Virus record (IMG/VR): IMGVR_UViG_3300042554_001408
Location: 1 to 34,383 of that record
Length of the DNA stretch: 34,383 bases
Source of the DNA: a virus
Reading direction: 5' to 3' (one strand)
The notes below the pieces were generated by a model that was not told the origin of the DNA, did no database searches, and saw only the letters and a program-made list of their open reading frames with translations. The first letter of the stretch is position 1; every line of letters starts with the position of its first letter. This document shows, piece by piece, positions 1,945-34,383 of this stretch. Position numbers and translations under genes: made by a program.

Positions 1945-2252
1945 CAGATACGGTCTACATGCGATTGTTTGAGATCCTGGTTGATCACGGGGATGATTTC
2001 ACGATCTCGGAACTGGTCAGCGTCTACAGTCTGAACGAGAACAGTACCCGCCAGGCCATTGCCAAGCTCCAGCGGCTCAATATGGTCGTGCCGACGGGTG
2101 AGATTAATGGGCGCGACAAGGTGTACGTCATCGCCAACCAGGCGGCTTCTGGTGTGGATGGGAAAGACCCGGAGGAGATTTTTGCCAGGTTGATGCGGCA
2201 CCGGCGGTACGAGAACTTCACGTTCAAGAAGCCGCAGGTTTTTGCGTCATGA
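1941..2252 (+). CDS. Small winged helix-turn-helix DNA-binding protein
   Basis: A 103-residue protein that looks like a winged helix-turn-helix. It has an N-terminal helix (MRLFEILVDHGDDF), a helix-turn-helix (TISELVSVYSLNENSTRQAIAKL), a recognition-helix end (QRLNMVVPTGEI) and a wing-like strand pair (GRDKVYVIANQ). The charged tail (residues 75-103) is not recognised. It overlaps terL and the following gene by ATGA. Possible roles are a late-gene regulator or an accessory of terminase DNA recognition; neither can be chosen from sequence. The fold is moderately well supported and the function is unknown. Confidence 0.72.
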   Translation: MTDTVYMRLFEILVDHGDDFTISELVSVYSLNENSTRQAIAKLQRLNMVVPTGEINGRDKVYVIANQAASGVDGKDPEEIFARLMRHRRYENFTFKKPQVFAS

Positions 2253-3016
2253 TGCTGAACTTCTTCCTGCCGTGGAACCCGCCGCACAAGGATGGCGAGT
2301 CGATCGCCAACAGCTTCTTCGGCGCCAAGGTTGTCAGGCATGGCCAACCGCTGGCCGACAACAACATGCACTACGGCATCCTGCACGGCGGCACCGACAT
2401 CAAGAACCGCTGCCGAGCAGAGAACAAGCACTGGATCCATGTCGACCATGGCCAGATCGGCGGCGCTCACGGTCCCGGTGACCTGACGGGGTACTACCGG
2501 TTTTCCCGCGGACACCGCAGCAACATCTACCGCGAGCCATCCCCGAGGGACCGGTATCGGCTCAAGAAGCTGCCGGTCAAGCAACTGCCCTGGAGGCAAC
2601 CGGACAAGCGCCGGTTCATTGCCTACCAGCCGCCGAGCCAGTTCATGTTCCACTACTGCCGGCTGCCCCCGGACTTCGATGCCAAGTGGCTCAGGATCGC
2701 CCAGGAGTTCTGGCCCGAGCATGAGGTCAAGGTCATGGACAAGGGCAAGAAGGACGAGTCGTTCTTCGAGGCGATCGACGGGTTCGTTTCGTTCGACAGC
2801 GGACTTGCCTGCGAGTGCCTTCAGCGTGGCATCCAGATTCTGATGACGGCCAAGGAGACCTGGTGGCCAAACCTCAAGTTCACGGACGAGAACCGCGAGA
2901 AGGTTTTGGCCTATCTTGCCGGCCGGAACTTCACCATCGAGGAGATGCAGAGCGGTGAGGCGCTGTTCCACCTGATCGACAACGGCGAGATCGTCGTCAG
3001 CAAGGGGGTCGCATGA
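2249..3016 (+). CDS. Capsule-synthesis-like glycosyltransferase (putative)
   Basis: A 255-residue protein without a signal peptide or membrane segment. The middle is rich in His, Trp and Tyr (HWIHVDHGQIGG near residue 60; TGYYRFSRGHRS). The C-terminal half resembles the nucleotide-sugar end of capsule polysaccharide synthesis proteins with a GT-B-like fold: DGFVSFDSGLACECLQRG (SFDSG at 181-185) corresponds to their NST-GLEALL-G pattern. I therefore infer a glycosyltransferase-like enzyme, perhaps with only part of the normal GT-B fold because it is short. It begins the sugar and methyl-transfer cassette and is joined by ATGA overlaps on both sides. The fold call is tentative; a structure prediction would settle it. 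Confidence 0.5.
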   Translation: MMLNFFLPWNPPHKDGESIANSFFGAKVVRHGQPLADNNMHYGILHGGTDIKNRCRAENKHWIHVDHGQIGGAHGPGDLTGYYRFSRGHRSNIYREPSPRDRYRLKKLPVKQLPWRQPDKRRFIAYQPPSQFMFHYCRLPPDFDAKWLRIAQEFWPEHEVKVMDKGKKDESFFEAIDGFVSFDSGLACECLQRGIQILMTAKETWWPNLKFTDENREKVLAYLAGRNFTIEEMQSGEALFHLIDNGEIVVSKGVA

Positions 3017-3342
3017 TCAAGGCAAAGTCGGCCAAGGCCAAGGGCCGGAAGCTGGAGCAATGGATCGTCAAGCAGTTCGAGGCACTCGGCCTGACTGCCC
3101 GACGCCAGCCCGGCAGCGGCGCGTTCGATGCCTTTCCCCACGATGTCGAGGCCCGGCTGAAGGACGGTCAACCCGTCCTGGTCGAAGCCAAACAGCGGAA
3201 GAAGGACGCCTGGGCAACTGGCGAGCGGTGGATCGGGAGCGCCGACATCCTGGTGGTCAGGATCGACCCCGAGCCGGGCAAGCAGCTCAACGAGCCGCGC
3301 GTCTACATGAAGTGGTCAACCTTTGAAAGGCTGGTCCGATGA
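3013..3342 (+). CDS. Hjc-like PD-(D/E)XK Holliday junction resolvase
   Basis: A 109-residue nuclease-like protein matching the layout of archaeal-type Hjc resolvases and related phage enzymes. A conserved N-terminal helix carries Glu15 (GRKLEQWIVKQF); RRQPGSGAFD follows at 30-39; Asp44 lies in HDVEA; and VEAKQ supplies Glu58-x-Lys60. These form the E-D-ExK metal site. The C-terminal half (WIGSADILVVR) fits the remaining strands. In phages such enzymes resolve branched DNA before packaging (T4 endonuclease VII and T7 endonuclease I do this with other folds). Its place two genes after terL, ATGA-linked on both sides, fits that role. A VRR-NUC or restriction-like role cannot be excluded. Confidence 0.72.
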   Translation: MIKAKSAKAKGRKLEQWIVKQFEALGLTARRQPGSGAFDAFPHDVEARLKDGQPVLVEAKQRKKDAWATGERWIGSADILVVRIDPEPGKQLNEPRVYMKWSTFERLVR

Positions 3343-3920
3343 AGATCAACGACTACGCCAGGGAGCGCAACATCAACCCCATCAGGCTCAATCTTGGATG
3401 CGGCGGCCGACTGTTCGACGGGTGGATCAACATCGACAAGTACCCGCACAATGCACGGGACACCGCCCGCGGCGCTGGCGAACCGGACATCTACGAAGAC
3501 ATCTGCGATCTGCCAGTCCTGGATGGCACCGTCGATCAGATCATGCTGGTTCACGTGGTCGAGCATTTCACCCGCTGGCAGACCATCGACAACCTGAAGC
3601 ACTGGGCCTGCAAGCTTCGGGATCGTGGCCTGCTCATTGTCGAGATGCCCGACCTGGACAAGTGCATCGAGTGGTACCTGAAGGGCAAGGACGCCCCTCA
3701 CATCGACACCGCCATTGGCAAGCAGAACATGGGCAAGACCCAGTTCTACGGCAACCAATGGGATCGGCTGGACTACGAGACGCATCGCTACGTCTGGACC
3801 GTCAGCGAGTTCATCCGCGAGTTGAACCGTGCCGGGTTCTGGATCAAGGAAGCCAGCCACGACGCCAGATTTCACCAGAAGGGCCGCGACATGTGGGTCG
3901 TGGCGGAGAAGGTCACATGA
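3339..3920 (+). CDS. SAM-dependent methyltransferase, class I (first of two)
   Basis: A 193-residue Rossmann-fold methyltransferase. Motif I is LNLGCGG (residues 17-23), followed by an acidic end of strand 2 (WINIDKYP). The post-motif PDIYEDICDLPVLDGTVDQI and the HVVEHF segment are typical of small phage and sugar-modifying methyltransferases in the COG4627-like group. A later strand reads GLLIVEMPDLDKC. No DNA-methylase signature (DPPY or NPPF) is present, so DNA is an unlikely target. The neighbouring glycosyltransferases suggest a sugar or glycan acceptor, which is inference. It overlaps the resolvase and the second methyltransferase by ATGA. Confidence 0.85.
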   Translation: MKINDYARERNINPIRLNLGCGGRLFDGWINIDKYPHNARDTARGAGEPDIYEDICDLPVLDGTVDQIMLVHVVEHFTRWQTIDNLKHWACKLRDRGLLIVEMPDLDKCIEWYLKGKDAPHIDTAIGKQNMGKTQFYGNQWDRLDYETHRYVWTVSEFIRELNRAGFWIKEASHDARFHQKGRDMWVVAEKVT

Positions 3921-4423
3921 GCAACGTCGAACTCTACCGCCAGATGCACAGCCAGGGACACTTTCCGGGCCACAGCACCAAGAAATACAGCGGCATCATC
4001 AAGGGGTTGGTGCAGAAGTACGACGCCAAGACCCTGCTGGACTTCGGCAGCGGCAAGGGGATGCAGTACGACGAGCAGAAACTGCACGAGGAGTGGGGCA
4101 TCCCCAAGCCAACCCTGTACGACCCCGCCGTCAAGGGCATCGAAAGCCTGCCCAACGCGCTCCGGCCGTTCGATGGGGTCATCTGCTGCGACGTTCTGGA
4201 GCATCTTGCAGGCAAGGAACTGGCTGCCGCCGTGTTTGATGCCTCGATCCGGGCCAAGAAGTTCGTGTTCTTCGCGATTTCGACGCGCGCGGCCAAGAAG
4301 ACGCTTCCGGACGGCCGAAACGCCCATCTGACCATCCAGAGTCCTGACTGGTGGCAAGGATTCGTGACCAGTTTGGCCTTTGGAGGCCCGGAAATCGTGC
4401 TGAACTTTGACCCAGGGGGCTGA
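3917..4423 (+). CDS. SAM-dependent methyltransferase-like protein (second of two)
   Basis: A 168-residue protein starting at the ATG at 3917, inside the stop of the previous gene. The open frame extends much further upstream, but that part only shadows the first methyltransferase. Motif I is LLDFGSGKG (DFGSGKG at 42-48). A strand 4 region reads FDGVICCDVLEHL, and FVFFAISTRAAKKTLPDGR follows near residue 116. Phage proteins of this kind begin with a short helical lead such as ELYRQMH and usually sit beside glycosyltransferases. It differs from the first methyltransferase well beyond motif I, so a recent tandem duplication is unlikely. The substrate is unknown. Confidence 0.82.
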   Translation: MSNVELYRQMHSQGHFPGHSTKKYSGIIKGLVQKYDAKTLLDFGSGKGMQYDEQKLHEEWGIPKPTLYDPAVKGIESLPNALRPFDGVICCDVLEHLAGKELAAAVFDASIRAKKFVFFAISTRAAKKTLPDGRNAHLTIQSPDWWQGFVTSLAFGGPEIVLNFDPGG

Positions 4424-4424
4424 A

Positions 4425-5162
4425 ATGGACCCGTTTCCGTATTGGATCGGCTACGACAGCAGGGAGAAGGACGCCTTCGATGTCTGCTCCTTCTCCTGTC
4501 AGCGAAAATCATCCGTTCCGCTCTACATCCGCGCCCTGAAGCACAACGAACTGAGGCATTCCGGCCTGTTCTACCGGGAATGGCGGGTTGACGGGCAGAC
4601 GGGGCGCATGTTCGACACCCTGGATGGCAAGCCGTTCTCAACGGAGTTTGCCTTCACCCGGTTCCTCGTGCCGGCGCTTCAGCGGTACAAGGGCTGGGCG
4701 CTGTTCACCGACTGCGACATCCTCTGGCTGGGCGATGTGGCCGAGCTGATTGGCCTGGCGGACGACAAGTTCGCCGTGATGGTGGTCAAGCACAACTACG
4801 CGCCGCGCAGCCAGGTTAAGATGGATGGCCAGGCCCAGCAGAACTACCCGCGGAAGAACTGGTCGTCCGTGATCCTGTGGAACTGCGGGCATGAGGCGAA
4901 CAAGAAGCTGTCCGCTCAGTACGTCAACACGGCGCCGGGATGGGCCTTGCATGGCTTCTCCTGGCTGCAGGACAACGAGATCGGGGCGCTGCCGGAAAGC
5001 TGGAACTTCCTGGTAGGCCATAGCAACAGGTCGGTGTCGCCCAAGGTCATGCACTTCACCGAGGGCGGCCCGTGGTTCGATCACATGAAGGATGTGCCAT
5101 TCGCCGGCTGGTGGACGAGCGAGTTCGACCACATGCTGGCCTCAGAGGGGAAGTTTGAATGA
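4425..5162 (+). CDS. GT-A glycosyltransferase (GT8-like)
   Basis: A 245-residue protein whose best start is the ATG at 4425, preceded by a GGGGG ribosome site; an in-frame TTG at 4407 would overlap the previous gene. The metal-binding DxD is DCD (residues 96-98) in ALFTDCDILWLGDVAEL, the classic setting for GT-A enzymes that hold a UDP-sugar. TEFAFTRFLVPAL just before it is typical of GT8-like proteins. The C-terminal part has HFTEGGPWFDHM, matching the HF-G-KPW ending that completes the metal site. No membrane segment is seen, so it should be cytoplasmic. The donor and acceptor cannot be read from sequence. Confidence 0.85.
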   Translation: MDPFPYWIGYDSREKDAFDVCSFSCQRKSSVPLYIRALKHNELRHSGLFYREWRVDGQTGRMFDTLDGKPFSTEFAFTRFLVPALQRYKGWALFTDCDILWLGDVAELIGLADDKFAVMVVKHNYAPRSQVKMDGQAQQNYPRKNWSSVILWNCGHEANKKLSAQYVNTAPGWALHGFSWLQDNEIGALPESWNFLVGHSNRSVSPKVMHFTEGGPWFDHMKDVPFAGWWTSEFDHMLASEGKFE

Positions 5163-7102
5163 AAATCATGGTCATAACGAGTTGGTCCGATGCTGGTTTT
5201 GAACTCTACGGCAGGCGGTTTACCGAAACCGCGCACGAGTTCTTCCACGACAGCATGGACCTGACGATCGTCACGGACGAGGATCTGTCGCAGGACCAGG
5301 GGTTCCGCGACTTCATGGCCCGACATGCCAGCCGACGCATGGATGCCTCGGCGCCGGGCTACGACTACCGGCAGGACCTGCTTCGGTTCGCCCACAAGAT
5401 CTTCGCCCTGAAGGTTGGTTTGGCGGCCGCCAATGACTACGACTACCTCGTCTGGCTCGACGGCGATATCGAGACCCGGAAGAAGATCGACGCCGACTTT
5501 CTGATGCAGATCTGCCCGCAGGACAAGGATGGGGCGCTTCTGTCTCGAGCTGGGTCCGCGCCGCATCCCGAGTGCGGGTTCATGTCCTTCAACCTCCGGC
5601 GCAAGGGCGGTCACCTGCTCAGCCGCTACGTCGAGTTCTACGAGAAGGACGAAGTCCTGAAGCTCTCGGAGCTGCACGACAGCCATGTTTTCATGGCGAT
5701 GATCGTGGCGCATGTGCAGGCGTTCCAGTCCGACTGGCACGATCTTTGCCCAGTAGGCGGTGGACCGTATGGCCTGGATGCCTTCGAGAACTCGGTCCTC
5801 AACGACTACTTCGTCCACAAGAAGGGCGCCCGCAAGTCTGCCCTGACGAACGCCGATATCCTCGCCAGACTGCTTGGCGACAAGGTGGCGAAGGTCTGCA
5901 AGCCGGACGCCATCACCGACGACCCGGTGATCGTCCTGGACTGCGACATGCAGCCTGTTGAGCTGCTGCGCGAGGCGGTCAAGAAGCTGGCAGGCAGGAC
6001 GGTGATCTACCGGGGCTGGTACTCGTCCGACGAGCGGGGCGCGCATGTCGATACCACCCGCTACGGCATCAACACCGTCGTGACCGATCTGGTGGCTTTC
6101 GAGAGCATCGAGCTGGCCGCCGGAGGTGGATTCATCCACATGGCGGTGGGGAAGGACTACCCGATCCCGGCTGACCTGCCCGTGTTCCGGCAGCGGGAGC
6201 TTGAGGTCATGACCAAGGAGCAGGCCAAGGCGCTGACGGGTGGGGCCTACTCGACCAACATGCTGGTCAAGACCCAGAACTGCGTCCCAAACGAGACCAT
6301 TCAGGCCAACATCCAGGGCAACCTGGGTCTCATCAAGAAGTGGGTCCGGGCGCTCCTTCCACATCGCCGCCGGGCGATCATCGTGTCAGCCGGGCCGTCG
6401 CTCGATCTGCCCGAGACCATGGACGCCATCAGGATGGAACTAAATTCGGGCGCCGTCCTGTTCTGCGTCAAGCACTCCCATGCCAAGCTCTTGGCAGCCG
6501 GGATCGTTCCCTTCGGATGCGTCCTACTGGACCCGCGCCCGCACGAGGGCATCAGTACCCACGGGGTGCCGCGGGCTGAGCTTCTGCCGAAGGCGCATCC
6601 GGATGTGACCTACTTCGTGGCGTCGATGGTCGACCCTTCGACCACCAAGAGGCTCCTGGACACCGGGGGGAAGGTGGTCGGGTGGCATGCGGCGGTCGGG
6701 GCCAACGAGGCGGAGGTCCTGCCTGACGAACACAAGAAAATGCTCATGGGGGGCGGATCTTCGTCTGCCGGCAGGGCTATGATCCTGGCTTGGCAGTTCC
6801 TGGGGTTCTCTTCGATCGGGTTGTATGCCTTCGACTCGTGCCATTTCGATGAGGGCAAGCTCGACAAGAACGCCAGGCACCAAGACGGGACGGAGAAGTA
6901 CTTCGCCATGGAAGTTGGCGTCGGGGACCTGAAGAAGACGTTCTGGACCGACCGAGACATCCTCTGCCAGGCGCAAGACTTCACCCGGTTCCTGCAAGAG
7001 ACGCCCTGGATTCCGTGGGACGCGCACGGGCCGGGGATGGTGGCTTGGGTGTGGCAGTCTTCCAAGGGGCGGTTGCCCCGGTTCGAGGATGAGTTCGCAT
7101 GA
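5159..7102 (+). CDS. Two-domain protein: GT-A glycosyltransferase fused to DUF115/MptE-like (Maf) domain
   Basis: A 647-residue fusion. The N-terminal domain (about 1-225) is GT-A-like, with a metal-binding DGD (101-103) in VWLDGDIETRKK and a later GGPYGLDAFENSV segment. A linker of about 170 residues follows. The C-terminal domain (about 380-640) matches DUF115, shared by MptE pterin diphosphokinases and Maf flagellin glycosyltransferases: IIVSAGPSLDL (AGPSL at 411-415), then VKHSHAKLLAAGIVPFGCVLLDP, and a GGSSSAGRAMILAWQFLGF helix. Nothing suggests pterin synthesis nearby, so a sugar-transfer role like Maf is likelier. It overlaps its neighbours by ATGA and directly precedes the portal gene. 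Confidence 0.82.
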   Translation: MKIMVITSWSDAGFELYGRRFTETAHEFFHDSMDLTIVTDEDLSQDQGFRDFMARHASRRMDASAPGYDYRQDLLRFAHKIFALKVGLAAANDYDYLVWLDGDIETRKKIDADFLMQICPQDKDGALLSRAGSAPHPECGFMSFNLRRKGGHLLSRYVEFYEKDEVLKLSELHDSHVFMAMIVAHVQAFQSDWHDLCPVGGGPYGLDAFENSVLNDYFVHKKGARKSALTNADILARLLGDKVAKVCKPDAITDDPVIVLDCDMQPVELLREAVKKLAGRTVIYRGWYSSDERGAHVDTTRYGINTVVTDLVAFESIELAAGGGFIHMAVGKDYPIPADLPVFRQRELEVMTKEQAKALTGGAYSTNMLVKTQNCVPNETIQANIQGNLGLIKKWVRALLPHRRRAIIVSAGPSLDLPETMDAIRMELNSGAVLFCVKHSHAKLLAAGIVPFGCVLLDPRPHEGISTHGVPRAELLPKAHPDVTYFVASMVDPSTTKRLLDTGGKVVGWHAAVGANEAEVLPDEHKKMLMGGGSSSAGRAMILAWQFLGFSSIGLYAFDSCHFDEGKLDKNARHQDGTEKYFAMEVGVGDLKKTFWTDRDILCQAQDFTRFLQETPWIPWDAHGPGMVAWVWQSSKGRLPRFEDEFA

Positions 7103-9231
7103 ACGACCGCAAGTGGCGGGGTGACAGCGAGAAGATCAAGCCGAAGCGCCGGCAAGCCCTGTCGGCCTTCCTGGTCAACATCGCCGAGTCCCTGGATGCC
7201 GAGCAACGGCGCCAGATTGCCGCCATCTGCCTGGAGGACTTCAAGTCAGACCGCATGTCCCGGTCTGGCTGGGACGCCATGCATGCCGACTGGGTGTCGG
7301 TCTACAACCAGCAGGACAGCGCCATCTACAAGCCCTGGGAGGGTAGCTCAAGCGAGAGCTTGGGCCTGCTGACCGAGGCCTGCAACTCGTTCCAGGCCAG
7401 GGCCTACAAGTCGTTCTTCCCGTCCCGGATGCCGGTCGCGGCCATCCCGGTTGGCCCCCAGGACCCGGAGACGGCGGCGCGGGCCAAGCGGGTCGGTCAG
7501 TACCTGCAATGGTCGCTGTTCGTGAAGGACCAGTCCTACAAGGAGGACAAGGCGGCGATGCTGCTGCGGGTCGCGGTCCACGGCAGCGACTTCAGCAAGA
7601 CCTACTTCGACCCGGTCCTGAACAAGATCCAGGTGCGGCCGGTCAGGGCCGAGGATCTCTTCGTCGCCTACTCTGCCGGGCCGGTGAACATCGAGGACGT
7701 TCCCCGCAAGACAGAACTGATCCACCTGCAACTGAACGACGGGCGCATCCGGGCCTCTGAGGGCTACTTCCTGGCAGCCCCCGAGCCGATGATGATCGGC
7801 CAACTTCGGTCGCCCATCCAGGACCAAAACGACCAGGACAGCGGCATCGTCCAGATCCAGTCCGAGAGCGACGACTACGCCCAGATCATCGAGCAGCACC
7901 GAGATCTTGACCTGGACGGTGACGGCATTGCCGAGCCCTACAAGGTCTGGGTCGATGTGACCTCGGAGGAGCTTCTCCGAATCGAGGTGCGCTACGAGGT
8001 CGACGAGACCGGCCGCCCGACCAATGGCCGCCTGCCGATCGAGGAATACACCCACTATCGCTTCCTGGTGAACCCGGACGGCTTCTACGGCTACGGCCTG
8101 GGCTTCATGCTGGGCAACACGAACATCGCCATCAACAAGCTCCTGCGGCAGTTCATCGACGCCACGACGCTGTCGATCGCCGGCAACATGTCGGGCTTCA
8201 TCTCCGAGAGCCTGAACATCAACAAGGGGCCGGTGAAGATCGAGCTTGGTTCGTTCAAGTCGGTCTCGGCCAGCACGGACGACATCCAGAAGGGCATCAA
8301 GACGCTGTCGTTCCCGCCGCCCCCGCCGACGGTCATGCAGGCGATCGGGATGCTGGAGGCCAGGGCGCAGCGCATCGGCGCCACCACGGACGCGGCATCG
8401 GGCGATGTGCAGAAGGTCCTTCAGCCCAACACGGTCAGCCAGCTCATCGACCAGGCCCTGGTGGTCTTCACCTCGGTCCAGGAGTTTTTGCTGAACAGCT
8501 GGTCGAAGGAACTGAACAAGATCTACCGCTTGCACGGCCTGTACTTCCGCGGCTACGAGGCGTTCGTCACGCTGACGCCGGACGGGACCGAGCAGAACGA
8601 GATCACGGGCGACGACTTCGCGGCCGACATGATGATCATGCCGGTGGCCGATCCGCGGCTGGCAAGTCAGCAGGCCAGGGTGCAGAAGGCGCAGTTCCTG
8701 TTCGAGTTCGCCACCAAGAACCCGCTGATCGCCAACAACCCGCAGACGCTCCTGGCGGTGTCGCGCAGGCTCCTCGAGGAAATGGAGATCGAGCAGATCG
8801 ACACCCTTCTGCCGCGCAGTCCGGAGGAGATCCCGCCGTCCCCGCCGGATCCGAAGGTGGTTGCCGAGCAGCAGAAGCTTCAGTTCGAGGCGCAGAAGCT
8901 TCAGGCCCAATTGGCCATGGACCAGCAGCGGATGCAGATCGAAGCGCAGATCAACGCGCAGCGCCTTCAGATGGAACAGGCGATGCAGCAGATGCGGATT
9001 GAGAACGAGCGTCTGATCGCCCAGGAGAAGCTGGCCCTGGAGCGGGAGATCGAGCAGATGAAGCTCGCCCTGAAGGCCGAATTGGACCGGGAGAAGCTCG
9101 TCCTGGATGCCCAGACCAAGCGCGAGGAGATGCAGGCTCGTAACTCCCCGCGCGAGGTGAAGATCACCTCCGAGCCACGGGAGATCAAGGTCATGGCTGA
9201 ACCGCGCGAAATCGTACTGAGGAGAGGCTGA
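7099..9231 (+). CDS. Portal protein (head-tail connector), podovirus type
   Basis: A 710-residue protein expected to form the dodecameric ring at the special vertex through which DNA passes. Typical portal features are an N-terminal helical part with WVSVYNQQDSAIYKPWEG, a clip/stem region around DLDLDGDGIAEPYKVW (near 270-290), and the HYRFLVNPDGFYGYGLGF segment near 315-335. PPPPP at about 400 precedes long helices. From about residue 575 the protein is an extended Gln/Glu/Lys-rich coiled coil, like the barrel of long podoviral portals. Heptad-like repeats there (EQMKLALKAELDREKL) are strong. The gene starts inside the stop of the glycosyltransferase fusion, an unusual neighbour for a portal. 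Confidence 0.92.
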   Translation: MNDRKWRGDSEKIKPKRRQALSAFLVNIAESLDAEQRRQIAAICLEDFKSDRMSRSGWDAMHADWVSVYNQQDSAIYKPWEGSSSESLGLLTEACNSFQARAYKSFFPSRMPVAAIPVGPQDPETAARAKRVGQYLQWSLFVKDQSYKEDKAAMLLRVAVHGSDFSKTYFDPVLNKIQVRPVRAEDLFVAYSAGPVNIEDVPRKTELIHLQLNDGRIRASEGYFLAAPEPMMIGQLRSPIQDQNDQDSGIVQIQSESDDYAQIIEQHRDLDLDGDGIAEPYKVWVDVTSEELLRIEVRYEVDETGRPTNGRLPIEEYTHYRFLVNPDGFYGYGLGFMLGNTNIAINKLLRQFIDATTLSIAGNMSGFISESLNINKGPVKIELGSFKSVSASTDDIQKGIKTLSFPPPPPTVMQAIGMLEARAQRIGATTDAASGDVQKVLQPNTVSQLIDQALVVFTSVQEFLLNSWSKELNKIYRLHGLYFRGYEAFVTLTPDGTEQNEITGDDFAADMMIMPVADPRLASQQARVQKAQFLFEFATKNPLIANNPQTLLAVSRRLLEEMEIEQIDTLLPRSPEEIPPSPPDPKVVAEQQKLQFEAQKLQAQLAMDQQRMQIEAQINAQRLQMEQAMQQMRIENERLIAQEKLALEREIEQMKLALKAELDREKLVLDAQTKREEMQARNSPREVKITSEPREIKVMAEPREIVLRRG

Positions 9232-13157: not shown

Positions 13158-14264
13158 ATGCTGCGGGTCCGGCAGCCATTACTCGCGGTTGTAGGTGCCG
13201 GCCCATCGACAGCAACGGCCACCGGCAGCAGCACCGTTGACGCGGCATTCTCCGCCCTCGCCACATTCACGGCAGCGGCGACTGGCAGCAGCACCGTTGC
13301 GGCATCGTTCTCAGGCAGCGTTACGTCCACGGCAAGCGCCGCCGGATCCAGCACGGTTGCGGCAATCCTCTCCGCTCTTGCCACATTCGACGCCTCTGCC
13401 ACCGGCAGCAGCACGGTCACGGCAGTTGGCTCTTCCTCTGTTGTTGCCAAGCCAATCCAGGGTCTCACTTTCCTCTTCGGCGCCCTGTACGACGCAGGCG
13501 GGGGCGGAGCGGCCGATGCCTCTGCGACTGGCGTCAGCGTCGTCTCTGCCGGGTTCTCTGCCCTAGCGACGTTCGACGCGGCGGCGGTTGGCAGCAGCAC
13601 GGTCTCGGCAGTCGGGTCCACAGCAGGTAGCGCCGTCACCGCCGACGCTTCTGCCACCGGCAGCAGCACCGTCGATGCGGCCTTCTCCGCGCTTGCTACC
13701 TTCACCGCCTCCGCCACCGGTTCAAGCACTGTCAACGCCACCACCGGCGGCCGAGCCAACGCGCCCTCTGTCGAGCAGAAGTTCGCCCGCTGGGCCTCCT
13801 ATCGACGGGTCGGCAGCAACTACATCCGCCAGGTCTCTCCAGGCGTCTACCTCCGCGTCAGGCCAGAGGAGCGCGTCCCGCAGGTCGTCGTCCAGGAGAG
13901 CGATGTCGGCCGCCTGGACGAGGTGCCGCTGCGCGGGCAGGCGATTGCCCTTGGCCTCACCAAGACCGACCAGCGCAAGCTCAGGAAGGAGCTGCGGCGG
14001 ATCGAGGTCGAGGAGCGGCGCGTCACCCGGATCTGCGGGACGGTCGCGTCGTGTTCCGGGTCGTCCAAAGTTGGCGCCCGCGGGGCCAAGTCGTATAGCG
14101 CCAAGGCTTCCGGCAGGTCGTCGGCTGGCGCCAGGATGTCGGCCAGGGCAACTGCGAACGCGGAGGCCACGAATGGGGGCATCGAACACGCGCTTACGAT
14201 CCGCTATCATGGCATCACGAAGCAGGAACTTGTCGACATCCTTGAGCAACTGGAGATCATCTGA
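13158..14264 (+). CDS. Repeat-containing virion protein (GSSTV repeats)
   Basis: A 368-residue protein in three parts. Residues about 20-195 carry roughly 20-residue imperfect repeats centred on ATGSSTV, seven exact GSSTV cores and one GVSVV variant, several followed by DAAFSALATFTA. Residues about 200-285 are charged and helical (QRKLRKELRRIEVEERRV) and include YIRQVSPGVYLRVRPEER. The last part is Ser/Ala/Gly/Lys-rich and ends in HALTIRYHGITKQELVDIL. No signal peptide or enzyme motif is visible. It is probably a fibrous virion part; the Ser/Thr density makes it a possible glycan acceptor (inference). The strong GC bias of the repeats hides shadow frames on both strands. Confidence 0.6.
   Translation: MLRVRQPLLAVVGAGPSTATATGSSTVDAAFSALATFTAAATGSSTVAASFSGSVTSTASAAGSSTVAAILSALATFDASATGSSTVTAVGSSSVVAKPIQGLTFLFGALYDAGGGGAADASATGVSVVSAGFSALATFDAAAVGSSTVSAVGSTAGSAVTADASATGSSTVDAAFSALATFTASATGSSTVNATTGGRANAPSVEQKFARWASYRRVGSNYIRQVSPGVYLRVRPEERVPQVVVQESDVGRLDEVPLRGQAIALGLTKTDQRKLRKELRRIEVEERRVTRICGTVASCSGSSKVGARGAKSYSAKASGRSSAGARMSARATANAEATNGGIEHALTIRYHGITKQELVDILEQLEII
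13215..13740 (+). repeat. Imperfect ~60-bp coding repeats encoding ATGSSTV units
   Basis: About eight units run between 13215 and 13740 with ACCGGCAGCAGCAC-like cores. The encoded core GSSTV occurs exactly seven times, from residues 23-27 to residues 188-192 of the host gene, plus one GVSVV variant. Unit length is about 20 codons, with a longer insertion (IQGLTFLFGALYD) between the fourth and fifth. The near-identity of unit 1 and unit 7 at protein level indicates duplication or recombination within the gene. Confidence 0.9.
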
Positions 14265-31698: not shown

Positions 31699-32103
31699 AT
31701 GCTCGCAGCCCTGTTGCCGGTCCTGACGCCCATCCTGGGTCAGGTAGCCAAGTCGGTCTTCCCCAACGCCGAGGACGAGATCAAGCGCTTGGAGATCCAG
31801 GCCCGCCTTCAGGAGTCCCTGATCGCAAACCAGGCGCAGATCGAGGCCGCGGCAGCGCAGGTCATCCAGGCTGAAATTGCCGGCGAGTCCTGGCTGCAAA
31901 AGAACTGGCGACCGATCACGATGTTGGTCTTCCTGGCGCTGATCGTCGGCAAATGGCTGGGGTGGACTGCGCCGGGCGTCAGCGAGGCCCTGGAGCTGCG
32001 ACTGCTCGGGCTGATCGAGATCGGGCTTGGCGGCTACGTGATCGGCCGATCGGTCGAGAAGGTAGCCCCAGCGATCGCACAGGCGCTCAGTAGGACCAAA
32101 TAG
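31699..32103 (+). CDS. Holin, GTA 3-TM type
   Basis: A 134-residue protein starting at the ATG at 31699, 2 bases after the previous stop; the longer frame to 31603 overlaps that gene. A charged helical N-terminus (EIKRLEIQARLQESLIANQA) is followed by AEIAGESWLQKNWRPITMLV. Two hydrophobic helices follow (ITMLVFLALIVGKWLGW and LLGLIEIGLGGYVIGRSVEK). SW-Q-NWRP and GGYV-GRS-EK are hallmarks of the GTA_holin_3TM group of alphaproteobacterial phages and gene transfer agents. It should open the inner membrane to release the endolysin. Its last 17 bases overlap the endolysin gene on the other strand. Confidence 0.88.
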   Translation: MLAALLPVLTPILGQVAKSVFPNAEDEIKRLEIQARLQESLIANQAQIEAAAAQVIQAEIAGESWLQKNWRPITMLVFLALIVGKWLGWTAPGVSEALELRLLGLIEIGLGGYVIGRSVEKVAPAIAQALSRTK

Positions 32104-32437
32104 ACGGGACCTCGCGGTTGTCGAGGTGGATGAAGCGGCCGTCGCCGGTCTGCTGCACCCCGATGCCGCCGAAGCCGTGAGCCAGGGCCAGTTTCACGAG
32201 CGTGTAAGCGTCTGAGCCGGTGACGAGGACATCTACCGCCCTGCCCTGACTATGCATCCCAGGGACCTTCTTGGCAGCCTCCGCAGGGTGGGAGGGATGC
32301 CGGTAGGCCGACGAGATCCGCATGGGCTTGCCGTAGGCTTCCCGCAGCCGGTCGAGCTTGGTCATGAACTCGGCGTTCATCTGGCACAGGCCGGTATGCC
32401 GGCAGGACAGTTCGTGCTTGCTGAAATACTGGCTCAT
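32087..32437 (-). CDS. Endolysin, M15 peptidase (L-Ala-D-Glu/D-Ala-D-Ala type)
   Basis: A 116-residue zinc peptidase that cuts peptidoglycan peptides at lysis. The start is the ATG at 32437, because GGAGG lies 5 bases before it and its first bases overlap the previous stop by ATGA. QYFSKHELSC is the usual opening of M15 phage enzymes, and RISSAYR (40-46) the conserved substrate-side segment. MHSQGRAVDV gives zinc ligands His62 and Asp69, and FIHLD gives His104. No signal peptide or cell-wall-binding domain is present, so it needs the holin. It lies on the strand opposite the holins. Confidence 0.9.
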   Translation of the reverse strand: MSQYFSKHELSCRHTGLCQMNAEFMTKLDRLREAYGKPMRISSAYRHPSHPAEAAKKVPGMHSQGRAVDVLVTGSDAYTLVKLALAHGFGGIGVQQTGDGRFIHLDNREVPSIWSY

Positions 32438-32595
32438 GCCAGCCTCCATACTCTGGTGCCGCCGATGACGCGGGCGACGACGAATACGCCTTGCCCCTTC
32501 ACGACATGCCGACTGACGATGCGCTCGACCTCGAGGCGCTTGTTCTCGGCGGCGGTGAAGAACAGGGCTTGCCCGACCCGCAGGCGAGAGAGCAT
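32434..32595 (-). CDS. Small hypothetical protein, SH3-like strand pattern
   Basis: A 53-residue protein from the ATG at 32595, chosen because AGGGA lies about 8 bases upstream; the open frame runs back to 32694 across another gene. The sequence alternates strands (LRVGQALFFTAAENKRLEVE; GVFVVARVIGGTRVWRLA) in a way that suggests a small beta barrel, with many Arg and Lys. Its stop overlaps the endolysin start. It could bind nucleic acid. No family is recognised. Confidence 0.55.
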   Translation of the reverse strand: MLSRLRVGQALFFTAAENKRLEVERIVSRHVVKGQGVFVVARVIGGTRVWRLA

Positions 32596-32635
32596 CAGGT
32601 TTCCCTTTTGCCCCCGCCTGCGAGCCGGGACCAGG

Positions 32636-32836
32636 TCAAGCCGCGAGGGCTCGCCCGGCGATTGCGCGGATGTCGGCTTCGGTGGCCGTGGCACGGATCA
32701 GCTCCAGCGCCGCCGTGGTGATGCCGAGGACCTCGCGGGGGTTTCGTTCGGGCGCAACCGTGGTCTCGATCCGGACCTTCGGCGGTCGACCGCGGCGCTT
32801 CTTCGGGGCTTCGGGGGTGGGAACGACGTCGCTCAT
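32636..32836 (-). CDS. Small protein with AT-hook-like motif
   Basis: A 66-residue protein from the ATG at 32836, with AGGAGA upstream. The N-terminus carries KKRRGRPPKV (12-21), an AT-hook-like minor-groove binding core (RGRP). The C-terminal half is helical (GITTAALELIRATATEADIR). Its start overlaps the end of the preceding gene by ATGA. Likely an early DNA-binding protein; the motif is short, so caution applies. Confidence 0.58.
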   Translation of the reverse strand: MSDVVPTPEAPKKRRGRPPKVRIETTVAPERNPREVLGITTAALELIRATATEADIRAIAGRALAA

Positions 32837-33150
32837 ACTCTTCTCCTGTTTGCGGACATGGTCTGCCAGGCGTCGATCACCCGCTCTCTCCATGCCCTTT
32901 CGTGGCGAAGTCTTTCTGCCAGGGCGACGGCTCGCCGCTTCTCTTCGAGCGCCTCCGCGTATCGTGGCGATGCGTATGCCGCCGCTTCGCGGTCTGCGGC
33001 GCGCGGCAAGTCGCTGGCCAGATACTCGCGGGCATACACGGTCTTCAGGAAGTCGGCCTGAAAGTCCGCGTCGGCCCTGGCAGTCGCAGCCTGAGCGCCA
33101 AGGTCTTCCAAGGCGCCCAGGTGCTTCTCGATGTCCTCGTCCCGGATCAT
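32833..33150 (-). CDS. Hypothetical early protein, helical
   Basis: A 105-residue Ala/Arg/Glu-rich protein with long helices (EDIEKHLGALEDLGAQAATA; YAEALEEKRRAVALAERLRH). It starts in a one-base overlap (TGATG) with the SSB-like gene, so it belongs to the recombination operon. No motif is recognised; a coiled-coil accessory protein is the most that can be said. Confidence 0.6.
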   Translation of the reverse strand: MIRDEDIEKHLGALEDLGAQAATARADADFQADFLKTVYAREYLASDLPRAADREAAAYASPRYAEALEEKRRAVALAERLRHERAWRERVIDAWQTMSANRRRV

Positions 33151-33425
33151 CAGAACGGCATGCTGTCGTCCAGATCATCCCGCCTGGAGTCATCCCGCTT
33201 GGCGGGGGCTCGGTCGCGGGTATTTCCGCGGTCGTCCTCTCGCTCGCGCGGGGGCTTCAGGGCGATCATGACCTTGCCGTCCTCCGATTTCGTCAGGGGC
33301 ATGTAATCGAGATAGAGGGTATATCCCCCGGATTTGGACGGCATGGCAATGCCAATCTTCGTCCAGTAGGTCTTTTCCGTGCGCGGGTTCTTGATCCCGT
33401 GCAGGGCGTCGAGGCGTTCGCTCAT
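33150..33425 (-). CDS. Single-strand DNA-binding-like protein with SSB-type acidic tail
   Basis: A 91-residue protein with two parts. Residues about 10-60 resemble a short strand-rich domain found in phages and alphaproteobacteria (KTYWTKIGIAMPSKSGGYTL, YLDYMPL, then GKVMIALKPP). Residues 60-91 are a charged, disordered linker ending DDLDDSMPF, very like the acidic DDDIPF tip by which bacterial SSB recruits partner enzymes. It is two genes downstream of the ERF annealing protein. The tail is direct evidence of an SSB-like role; the core domain is shorter than a normal OB fold, so DNA binding is inferred. Confidence 0.62.
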   Translation of the reverse strand: MSERLDALHGIKNPRTEKTYWTKIGIAMPSKSGGYTLYLDYMPLTKSEDGKVMIALKPPREREDDRGNTRDRAPAKRDDSRRDDLDDSMPF

Positions 33426-33796
33426 TGGTACTTCTCCTTGACCTGGTTCGTGAACTTCTTGAATGCCTCTGTCGAGAGGACGTTGACCGTCTCCTCCGGC
33501 CAGTTGAACTGCACCGCGCAGATCTCGACATCCTCTCTTCCAAGCCGGCGGAGCTGGTCGGCCAGGATTATGATGCCGTCATCGAAGATCTTCCGGCGCC
33601 GGGCCTTGGCGTCGGCCAGCATGGCTTCGATCTTCTCGATGGTGGCATCGACCTCGTCGCCGGCAGAGACGATCGCCCGCAGGACCAGGACAACCTCGTG
33701 GTCGAACTTGGTCATGTCGAACTGGGTGTTTTCCTTGATCGCCGGCTTGGTGATGTCGATGTCCAGCAGGACCTGGTGATTGCGCTCCTTGGTCAT
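33422..33796 (-). CDS. Unknown protein of the recombination operon
   Basis: A 124-residue protein from the ATG at 33796, which overlaps the ERF gene stop by ATGA. The longer open frame to 34204 only shadows ERF. The product has a strand-rich start (VLLDIDITKPAIKENTQF), a helical middle (DATIEKIEAMLADAKARRRK), and ends CAVQFNWPEETVNVLST with a Lys-rich tail. It lies between ERF and the SSB-like gene, so a role in DNA recombination or replication is likely. I do not recognise it. Confidence 0.65.
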   Translation of the reverse strand: MTKERNHQVLLDIDITKPAIKENTQFDMTKFDHEVVLVLRAIVSAGDEVDATIEKIEAMLADAKARRRKIFDDGIIILADQLRRLGREDVEICAVQFNWPEETVNVLSTEAFKKFTNQVKEKYQ

Positions 33797-34374
33797 TCGC
33801 CGGCCTCCAATTCGGCAAGGCGCTTGTCCTTGGCGGCCAGCAGCGCGTGATAGCCCTCCTCGCTGACTTCCTTGATCATCTTGATGACATCCTTCTCCTG
33901 CAGCAGGACCTCGGCGATCGTGATGCTGTCGTGCGCCGCCTCGATCCGGCCGCGGATGCGCTTGAACTCGTCGCGAGCGCTGGGCTTGGCCGGCGGCTTG
34001 TCCTTGACTGCCTGGACCGTGTTGCCATCGGCGGCGTTGGCGTCGTCGTCCTCCTCCGCTGCCAGGCCGAAGAAGCTGGCGACCTGATATCGGCGGGCGA
34101 AGGTAATGACGCTGCCCATCTCCTGCATCTTGACGACCTTGGCCTGGTCGAGGGGCATGCAGGTGCAGATCATCCCTCCGCCCGAGTGCATCAGCCGCAG
34201 GCACATGACCATGCCCTCGGGGGTGCGCTCCAGCGTCTGCGTCATCGACAGGCCGTTGTCCGCCAGCGGCTTGCGGATGCCGTCGAGGATGGCGTCGAGC
34301 GTGGCGTAGGCGAACTTGTACGCGCCCCGGTCGCTCTTGACCGAGACCTCCCGGTTCTTGATCGGGTTCGACAT
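33793..34374 (-). CDS. ERF-family single-strand annealing protein
   Basis: A 193-residue protein of the ERF family, which pairs complementary single strands in phage recombination. The family core is clear: KFAYATLDAILDGIRKPLAD (20-39), NGLSMTQTLER, CLRLMHSGG, MGSVITFARRYQVASFFGL (about 86-104) and AAEEDDDAN. The remainder (about 115-193) is a charged, helical tail (VSEEGYHALLAAKDKRLAEL). The ATG at 34374 lies 9 bases from the window end with only a weak AGGG site visible, so the true start and promoter may lie further right. It is the first visible gene of the minus-strand operon. Confidence 0.9.
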   Translation of the reverse strand: MSNPIKNREVSVKSDRGAYKFAYATLDAILDGIRKPLADNGLSMTQTLERTPEGMVMCLRLMHSGGGMICTCMPLDQAKVVKMQEMGSVITFARRYQVASFFGLAAEEDDDANAADGNTVQAVKDKPPAKPSARDEFKRIRGRIEAAHDSITIAEVLLQEKDVIKMIKEVSEEGYHALLAAKDKRLAELEAGE

Positions 34375-34383
34375 GGCGCCCTG

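Follow-up and report, generated by a model that had tools for sequence, protein, structure and literature searches.

Virion glycosylation has been described for the mycobacteriophages Che8, Corndog and Myrna (Freeman et al. 2023, as cited in PMC12363180 and PMC12619734). As far as these citing papers describe them, those phages resemble the locus reported here in having phage-encoded glycosyltransferases proposed to act on virion proteins, but the enzyme set of our locus is different and includes a Maf domain, and its place is fixed across a whole lineage. Maf enzymes attach O-linked glycans to Ser/Thr, and CMP-Kdo can serve as their donor; their architecture comprises a degenerate Rossmann N-terminus, a central domain and a helical C-terminus (PMC11339370). 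Compared with Gtr serotype-conversion cassettes, the cassette analysed here has neither a membrane flippase nor a membrane-bound glycosyltransferase. In our literature search, made mostly outside subscription papers, neither the Maf-type module nor its fixed place was found described. Virion glycosylation by phage glycosyltransferases is already known; the Maf-type module and its fixed place would be new, provided that they serve to modify a virion protein.

The window, meaning the whole stretch of DNA that was analysed, is an IMG/VR virus record of 34,383 nt with 63% G+C. Its + strand carries, in order, terS (probably truncated at the record edge), terL, a slot of several genes, an SU10-type portal gene, a long structural run, and tail-fibre-like and holin-like genes near 32.1 kb. 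The features from terL to the portal are as follows.

451 to 1944, + strand: terL, the left anchor of the slot (phrog_979, 7.6e-32)
1941 to 2252, + strand: small HTH-like ORF, ATGA-coupled to terL (weak match to a transcriptional-regulator PHROG, 0.031)
2249 to 3016, + strand: gp4, putative glycosyltransferase with the KpsC/WbbB fold (fold match of the predicted model)
3013 to 3342, + strand: PDDEXK or Holliday-junction-resolvase-like nuclease (phrog_244, 4.5e-7)
3339 to 3920, + strand: MT1, class I SAM methyltransferase (Methyltransf_23, 5e-5, below the Pfam cut-off; phrog_6636, 1.1e-5)
3917 to 4423, + strand: MT2, class I SAM methyltransferase (phrog_24759, 1.1e-18; Pfam matches below cut-off)
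4425 to 5162, + strand: predicted GT-A glycosyltransferase, GT8-like (phrog_28018, 4e-64; Glyco_transf_8, 0.0015; DxD at residues 96-98)
5159 to 7102, + strand: fusion of a GT-A domain with a Maf/MptE (DUF115) domain (PF01973, 7.8e-11; best PDB match Maf 5mu5)
7099 to 9231, + strand: SU10-type portal, the right anchor of the slot (PF23899, SU10_portal, 1.1e-9; phrog_1216, 3e-23)

All junctions from terL to the portal but one are ATGA overlaps (at 1941, 2249, 3013, 3339, 3917, 5159 and 7099), the sole exception being the 1-nt gap between MT2 and the GT-A gene. The near-complete ATGA joining and the coupling to the packaging and portal operon, both claimed in an earlier note made from the sequence alone, are thereby borne out, and Pfam, PHROG and fold matches agree with its glycosyltransferase, methyltransferase and Maf calls. 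The note had counted five sugar- or methyl-transfer genes in the slot; these five enzymes are present, but the slot holds six genes plus the small HTH-like ORF, because positions 3013-3342 encode the nuclease gene that was overlooked. This nuclease probably goes with packaging and not with the sugar enzymes. The HTH-like ORF has a homologue only in the near relative L006, and a promoter scan gave two sites (1969 and 2059) against 1.5 expected. NCBIfam gave no assignments for the cassette proteins. In L006, an insertion of about 510 bases (6365-6879) lies between gp4 and the nuclease gene and ends in a near copy of the gp4 C-terminal residues (VDNGEIVSKGVA). At the far end of the window (32080-34383, - strand), ORFs that by eye resemble an M15-type endolysin and an ERF-type recombinase face the late operon.

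The fusion protein was analysed by profile and fold searches. In its C-terminal half the match to PF01973 (MptE-like / Maf_flag10) scores 42.5 bits, above the cut-off of 34.6, and a GT-A domain with a DxD at 101-103 makes up the N-terminal half. The predicted structure was of moderate quality (pLDDT 64.5), and the PDB fold search with it returned the Maf glycosyltransferase of Magnetospirillum as best match (5mu5, 1.3e-8), with GT6 enzymes and archaeal MptE/HPPK next in rank, in line with the GT-A/DUF115 fusion named in the note. For both the fusion and gp4, sequence-profile searches of the PDB were unhelpful and the matches came from fold searches. The MptE-like (Maf_flag10) domain shared with Maf enzymes makes Ser/Thr O-glycosylation plausible, but the three-domain Maf layout is not seen: a GT-A domain with a DxD occupies the N-terminal half, and the MptE-like domain nearly reaches the C-terminus. 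The GT-A domain, together with a methyltransferase domain in many homologues, thus stands in for the N- and C-terminal domains that Maf enzymes have. The gene surroundings also differ, as the fusion gene adjoins the portal or terS and not flagellin, the acceptor to which Maf enzymes transfer from a CMP-nonulosonic acid donor. In homologues from other phages, a Methyltransf_24 domain (5.7e-12) separates the two halves. The fusion of the window's clade, at about 647-690 residues compared with 726-815 in most others, has a shortened middle without the stretch that aligns to the methyltransferase motif of the other homologues.

The protein encoded at 4425-5162 falls in a PHROG that carries no function label, and its Glyco_transf_8 match scores 18.6 bits against a cut-off of 24.3, while a homologue reaches an E-value of 0.00023. 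D96 and D98 of its DxD are invariant across 17 diverse homologues. These comparisons support its assignment as a GT-A enzyme, tentatively of GT8-like type.

Family searches with gp4 alone (255 aa) gave no matches, and the fold search was made with a model of pLDDT 91.6. The PDB matches were KpsC (8fux, 1.5e-6, probability 1.00, TMq 0.51) and WbbB (2.9e-6), a Kdo transferase fold that backs the earlier glycosyltransferase call. Among 20 gp4 relatives, nine match DUF6716, a putative glycosyltransferase family, and two match Pfam Capsule_synth (best E 0.068), none of them over the cut-off. The overall fold is that of the Kdo transferases KpsC, WbbB and KrkA, but gp4 is shorter than these enzymes and the Capsule_synth match of its family is weak. 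The catalytic aspartate of KpsC is D160, and D66 of gp4 is near-invariant across the gp4 family. The predicted model thus supports gp4 as a putative glycosyltransferase with the KpsC/WbbB fold.

Compared with L006, the nearest relative, the cassette genes have dN/dS values of 0.00-0.16, and terL and the portal 0.02; this purifying selection indicates that the cassette genes are maintained. The fastest-changing among them is gp4 (0.16 against L006, and 0.32-0.39 against more distant relatives). The same gene order recurs in independent contigs, which together with purifying selection argues against a chance arrangement.

To avoid selecting on the cassette, viral contigs were searched with a portal alignment and a terL alignment. 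Both alignments were built from cassette-bearing phages, so the slot result describes one lineage and not phages generally. In all 67 loci holding both anchors, the slot contained a GT-A gene and a Maf-type gene. The 67 loci come from about 40 contigs (counted by name) and form 27, 20 and 12 portal clusters at 95%, 80% and 60% identity, respectively; their portal identity goes down to 35%. The gap between terL and the portal is 4.1-8.2 kb and holds a GT-A homologue plus glycosyltransferase and Maf/MptE domains. Two loci with more distant portals (24-27% identity) had no cassette genes, and nearly all of the more distant loci found with terL only were also without them. Mantel correlations of pairwise identities were 0.89 for portal and Maf-type gene, 0.82 for portal and GT-A, and 0.83 for terL and portal, with none of 999 permutations as high. 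Since the pair was present in 67/67 loci and its divergence tracks that of the portal, the GT-A/Maf-type pair is, on these sequence comparisons, a core and mainly vertically inherited trait of the lineage.

The remaining slot genes are less constant. Genes of the gp4 type are common in the lineage, the nuclease is limited to nearer relatives, and MT1 is seen in near relatives only; MT1, MT2, FkbM, a nucleotide-sugar epimerase, a CmcI/Methyltransf_24-type methyltransferase and a radical-SAM gene vary among relatives. Only the GT-A/Maf pair is fixed lineage-wide. The epimerase, found in the slot of the relative L041, favours a sugar pathway. As for the self-contained pathway suggested in the note, relatives do hold the epimerase and other sugar-type methyltransferases in the slot, but the cassette of the window has no gene for donor-sugar synthesis, which makes self-containment doubtful; the donors would be those of the host. 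One phage of the lineage is a contig that had been assigned to a Myxococcales MAG (SURF_8; L256 5332-14769); its terL-portal slot holds gp4, FkbM-like, MT2, radical-SAM, GT-A, GT and methyltransferase-MptE genes. A terL search among isolated phages reached only about 33% identity at best, so by terL there is no close cultured relative.

Beyond this lineage, a search with the fusion only gave 80 loci, 76 of them usable (not cut by a contig edge). In 74 of the 76 usable loci of other phages, the GT-A gene immediately precedes the fusion gene, and MT2 directly follows in 30 of these 74, which belong to unrelated phages. The module is mostly flanked by ribonucleotide reductase at one end and by terS or holin at the other. 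Versions with separate genes occur in Caulobacter giant phages, Pelagibacter phage Mosig, Stenotrophomonas phage DLP6 and the siphophage contigs L017 and L018, where they lie among genes read as tail genes. In CcrColossus, an MptE-like protein and homologues of gp4, GT-A and MT2 sit between a tail protein and an endolysin; the MptE-like protein there, gp126 (L026 5833-6483), is annotated as an alpha-2,3-sialyltransferase and matches the MptE-like family just under the Pfam cut-off (1.5e-7). By annotation and profile hits, the gene order of CcrSC is the same. These two cassettes differ from that of the window in having a separate, short MptE-like gene and in belonging to an unrelated siphovirus, and CcrColossus has an additional GT9 gene; we found no experimental work on their glycan genes in the literature. 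The cyanophage S-SCSM2R (L029 6992-10517) has annotated KdsB and KdsA genes a few genes from a GT-A homologue. In a Mesorhizobium jarvisii genome (L203 7049-15684), a GT-A homologue and a DUF6716 protein lie near a prohead protease/capsid gene, and the stretch is probably a prophage of this cultured strain. Mycobacteriophages were absent among the tblastn matches of GT-A (18 records) and of the fusion (2 records) in the 50,697 phage records searched.

We consider it an even call that the cassette is a late, lineage-core protein-glycosylation module whose likeliest acceptor is a virion protein. Late expression is suggested by the ATGA coupling of the genes into the terL-portal run, and cytosolic action by the absence of long hydrophobic segments: on the Kyte-Doolittle scale, no segment of the cassette proteins exceeded 1.5, that is, none was of membrane-spanning strength. 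Protein O-glycosylation is suggested by the activity of Maf enzymes on Ser/Thr and their ability to use CMP-Kdo (PMC11339370), and a virion protein as acceptor by the place and retention of the genes. The core status and vertical inheritance of the pair are more in keeping with a late virion function than with an accessory trait that could be lost. The cassette enzymes would be translated together with the packaging and portal proteins; acting in the cytosol, the Maf-type domain would draw on a host nucleotide sugar, with CMP-Kdo as a candidate, to begin an O-glycan at Ser/Thr residues of a structural protein; the GT-A domains and gp4 would lengthen this glycan, and the methyltransferases, which are of small-molecule type, would cap it. 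As the methyltransferases vary among relatives, related phages would bear different coats. A more specific form is rather unlikely in our estimate: an obligatory virion O-glycosylation by the GT/Maf chimera, integrated into the packaging operon of the whole lineage, with an ulosonic acid (Kdo drawn from the LPS precursors of the host) on a structural protein and exchangeable methyl caps, the chimera being shared by many unrelated aquatic phages.

The positions of the module near terS or holin, between tail and endolysin genes in the Caulobacter giant phages and among tail genes in the siphophage contigs count for a virion acceptor. Counted against it, the module of many phages lies beside nucleotide-metabolism genes and not structural ones, and gp4 relatives of known function (KpsC/WbbB-type) normally make surface polysaccharide. 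No Ser/Thr-rich structural protein common to the whole lineage was found. The gene at 13158-14264 of the window contains five imperfect repeats (13206-13739; 99-nt reference, mostly 60-nt register), and its product is rich in Ser, Thr and Ala, with 48% Ser/Thr in one 50-residue stretch. Similar repeats of the ATGSSTV type occur downstream of the portal in some relatives only (L274, L276, L280 and L283), which speaks against this protein as a general acceptor; as a possible acceptor, it is a weak lead.

The fold of gp4 is also what would be expected if the enzymes acted late in infection on the LPS or capsule of the host surface, perhaps so that progeny do not stick to debris or so that other phages are shut out, since it is the fold of surface-polysaccharide builders, and GT-A homologues occur in many proteobacterial genomes. 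However, the cassette has no flippase, polymerase or membrane-spanning glycosyltransferase, its Maf domain indicates protein acceptors, and it is invariably kept inside the structural operon with vertical retention, so we regard a surface acceptor as unlikely. A host protein such as flagellin, pilin or a defence protein, modified late in infection, is suggested by the fusion, whose closest solved structure is a flagellin-modifying enzyme; the late-operon position of the genes and their retention together with the portal agree less well with such an acceptor, the genes called in the window include none related to flagellin, and we give this reading the lowest probability of all.

Glycosylation and methylation of the phage DNA itself would be consistent with the best-known role of phage glycosyltransferases, DNA glucosylation, and with the ribonucleotide reductase adjoining the module of relatives. 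The terL-portal slot of the relative L117 also encodes an XF1762-family protein (8715-9191; 4.3e-60) with a weak Mom match (0.0013). The thymidylate-synthase family is the class of pyrimidine hydroxymethylases, and an enzyme of this family was found in none of the 20 records, mostly fragments, with a positive control; on these records, this sets the cassette phages apart from T4-type DNA glucosylation and makes DNA modification less likely. The top fold matches are moreover Maf, GT6 and KpsC/WbbB, not the T4 DNA glucosyltransferases. DNA as the target therefore appears quite improbable, only slightly less so than a host protein.

In summary, if virion proteins are the acceptors of this module, protein glycosylation would be an ordinary part of phage biology, reaching far beyond the mycobacteriophages. 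The basis for this broader reach is that the pair is never absent from the slot of the lineage and that the GT-Maf(-methyltransferase) fusion occurs in many unrelated aquatic phages. The cultured relatives CcrColossus and CcrSC make the hypothesis directly testable.
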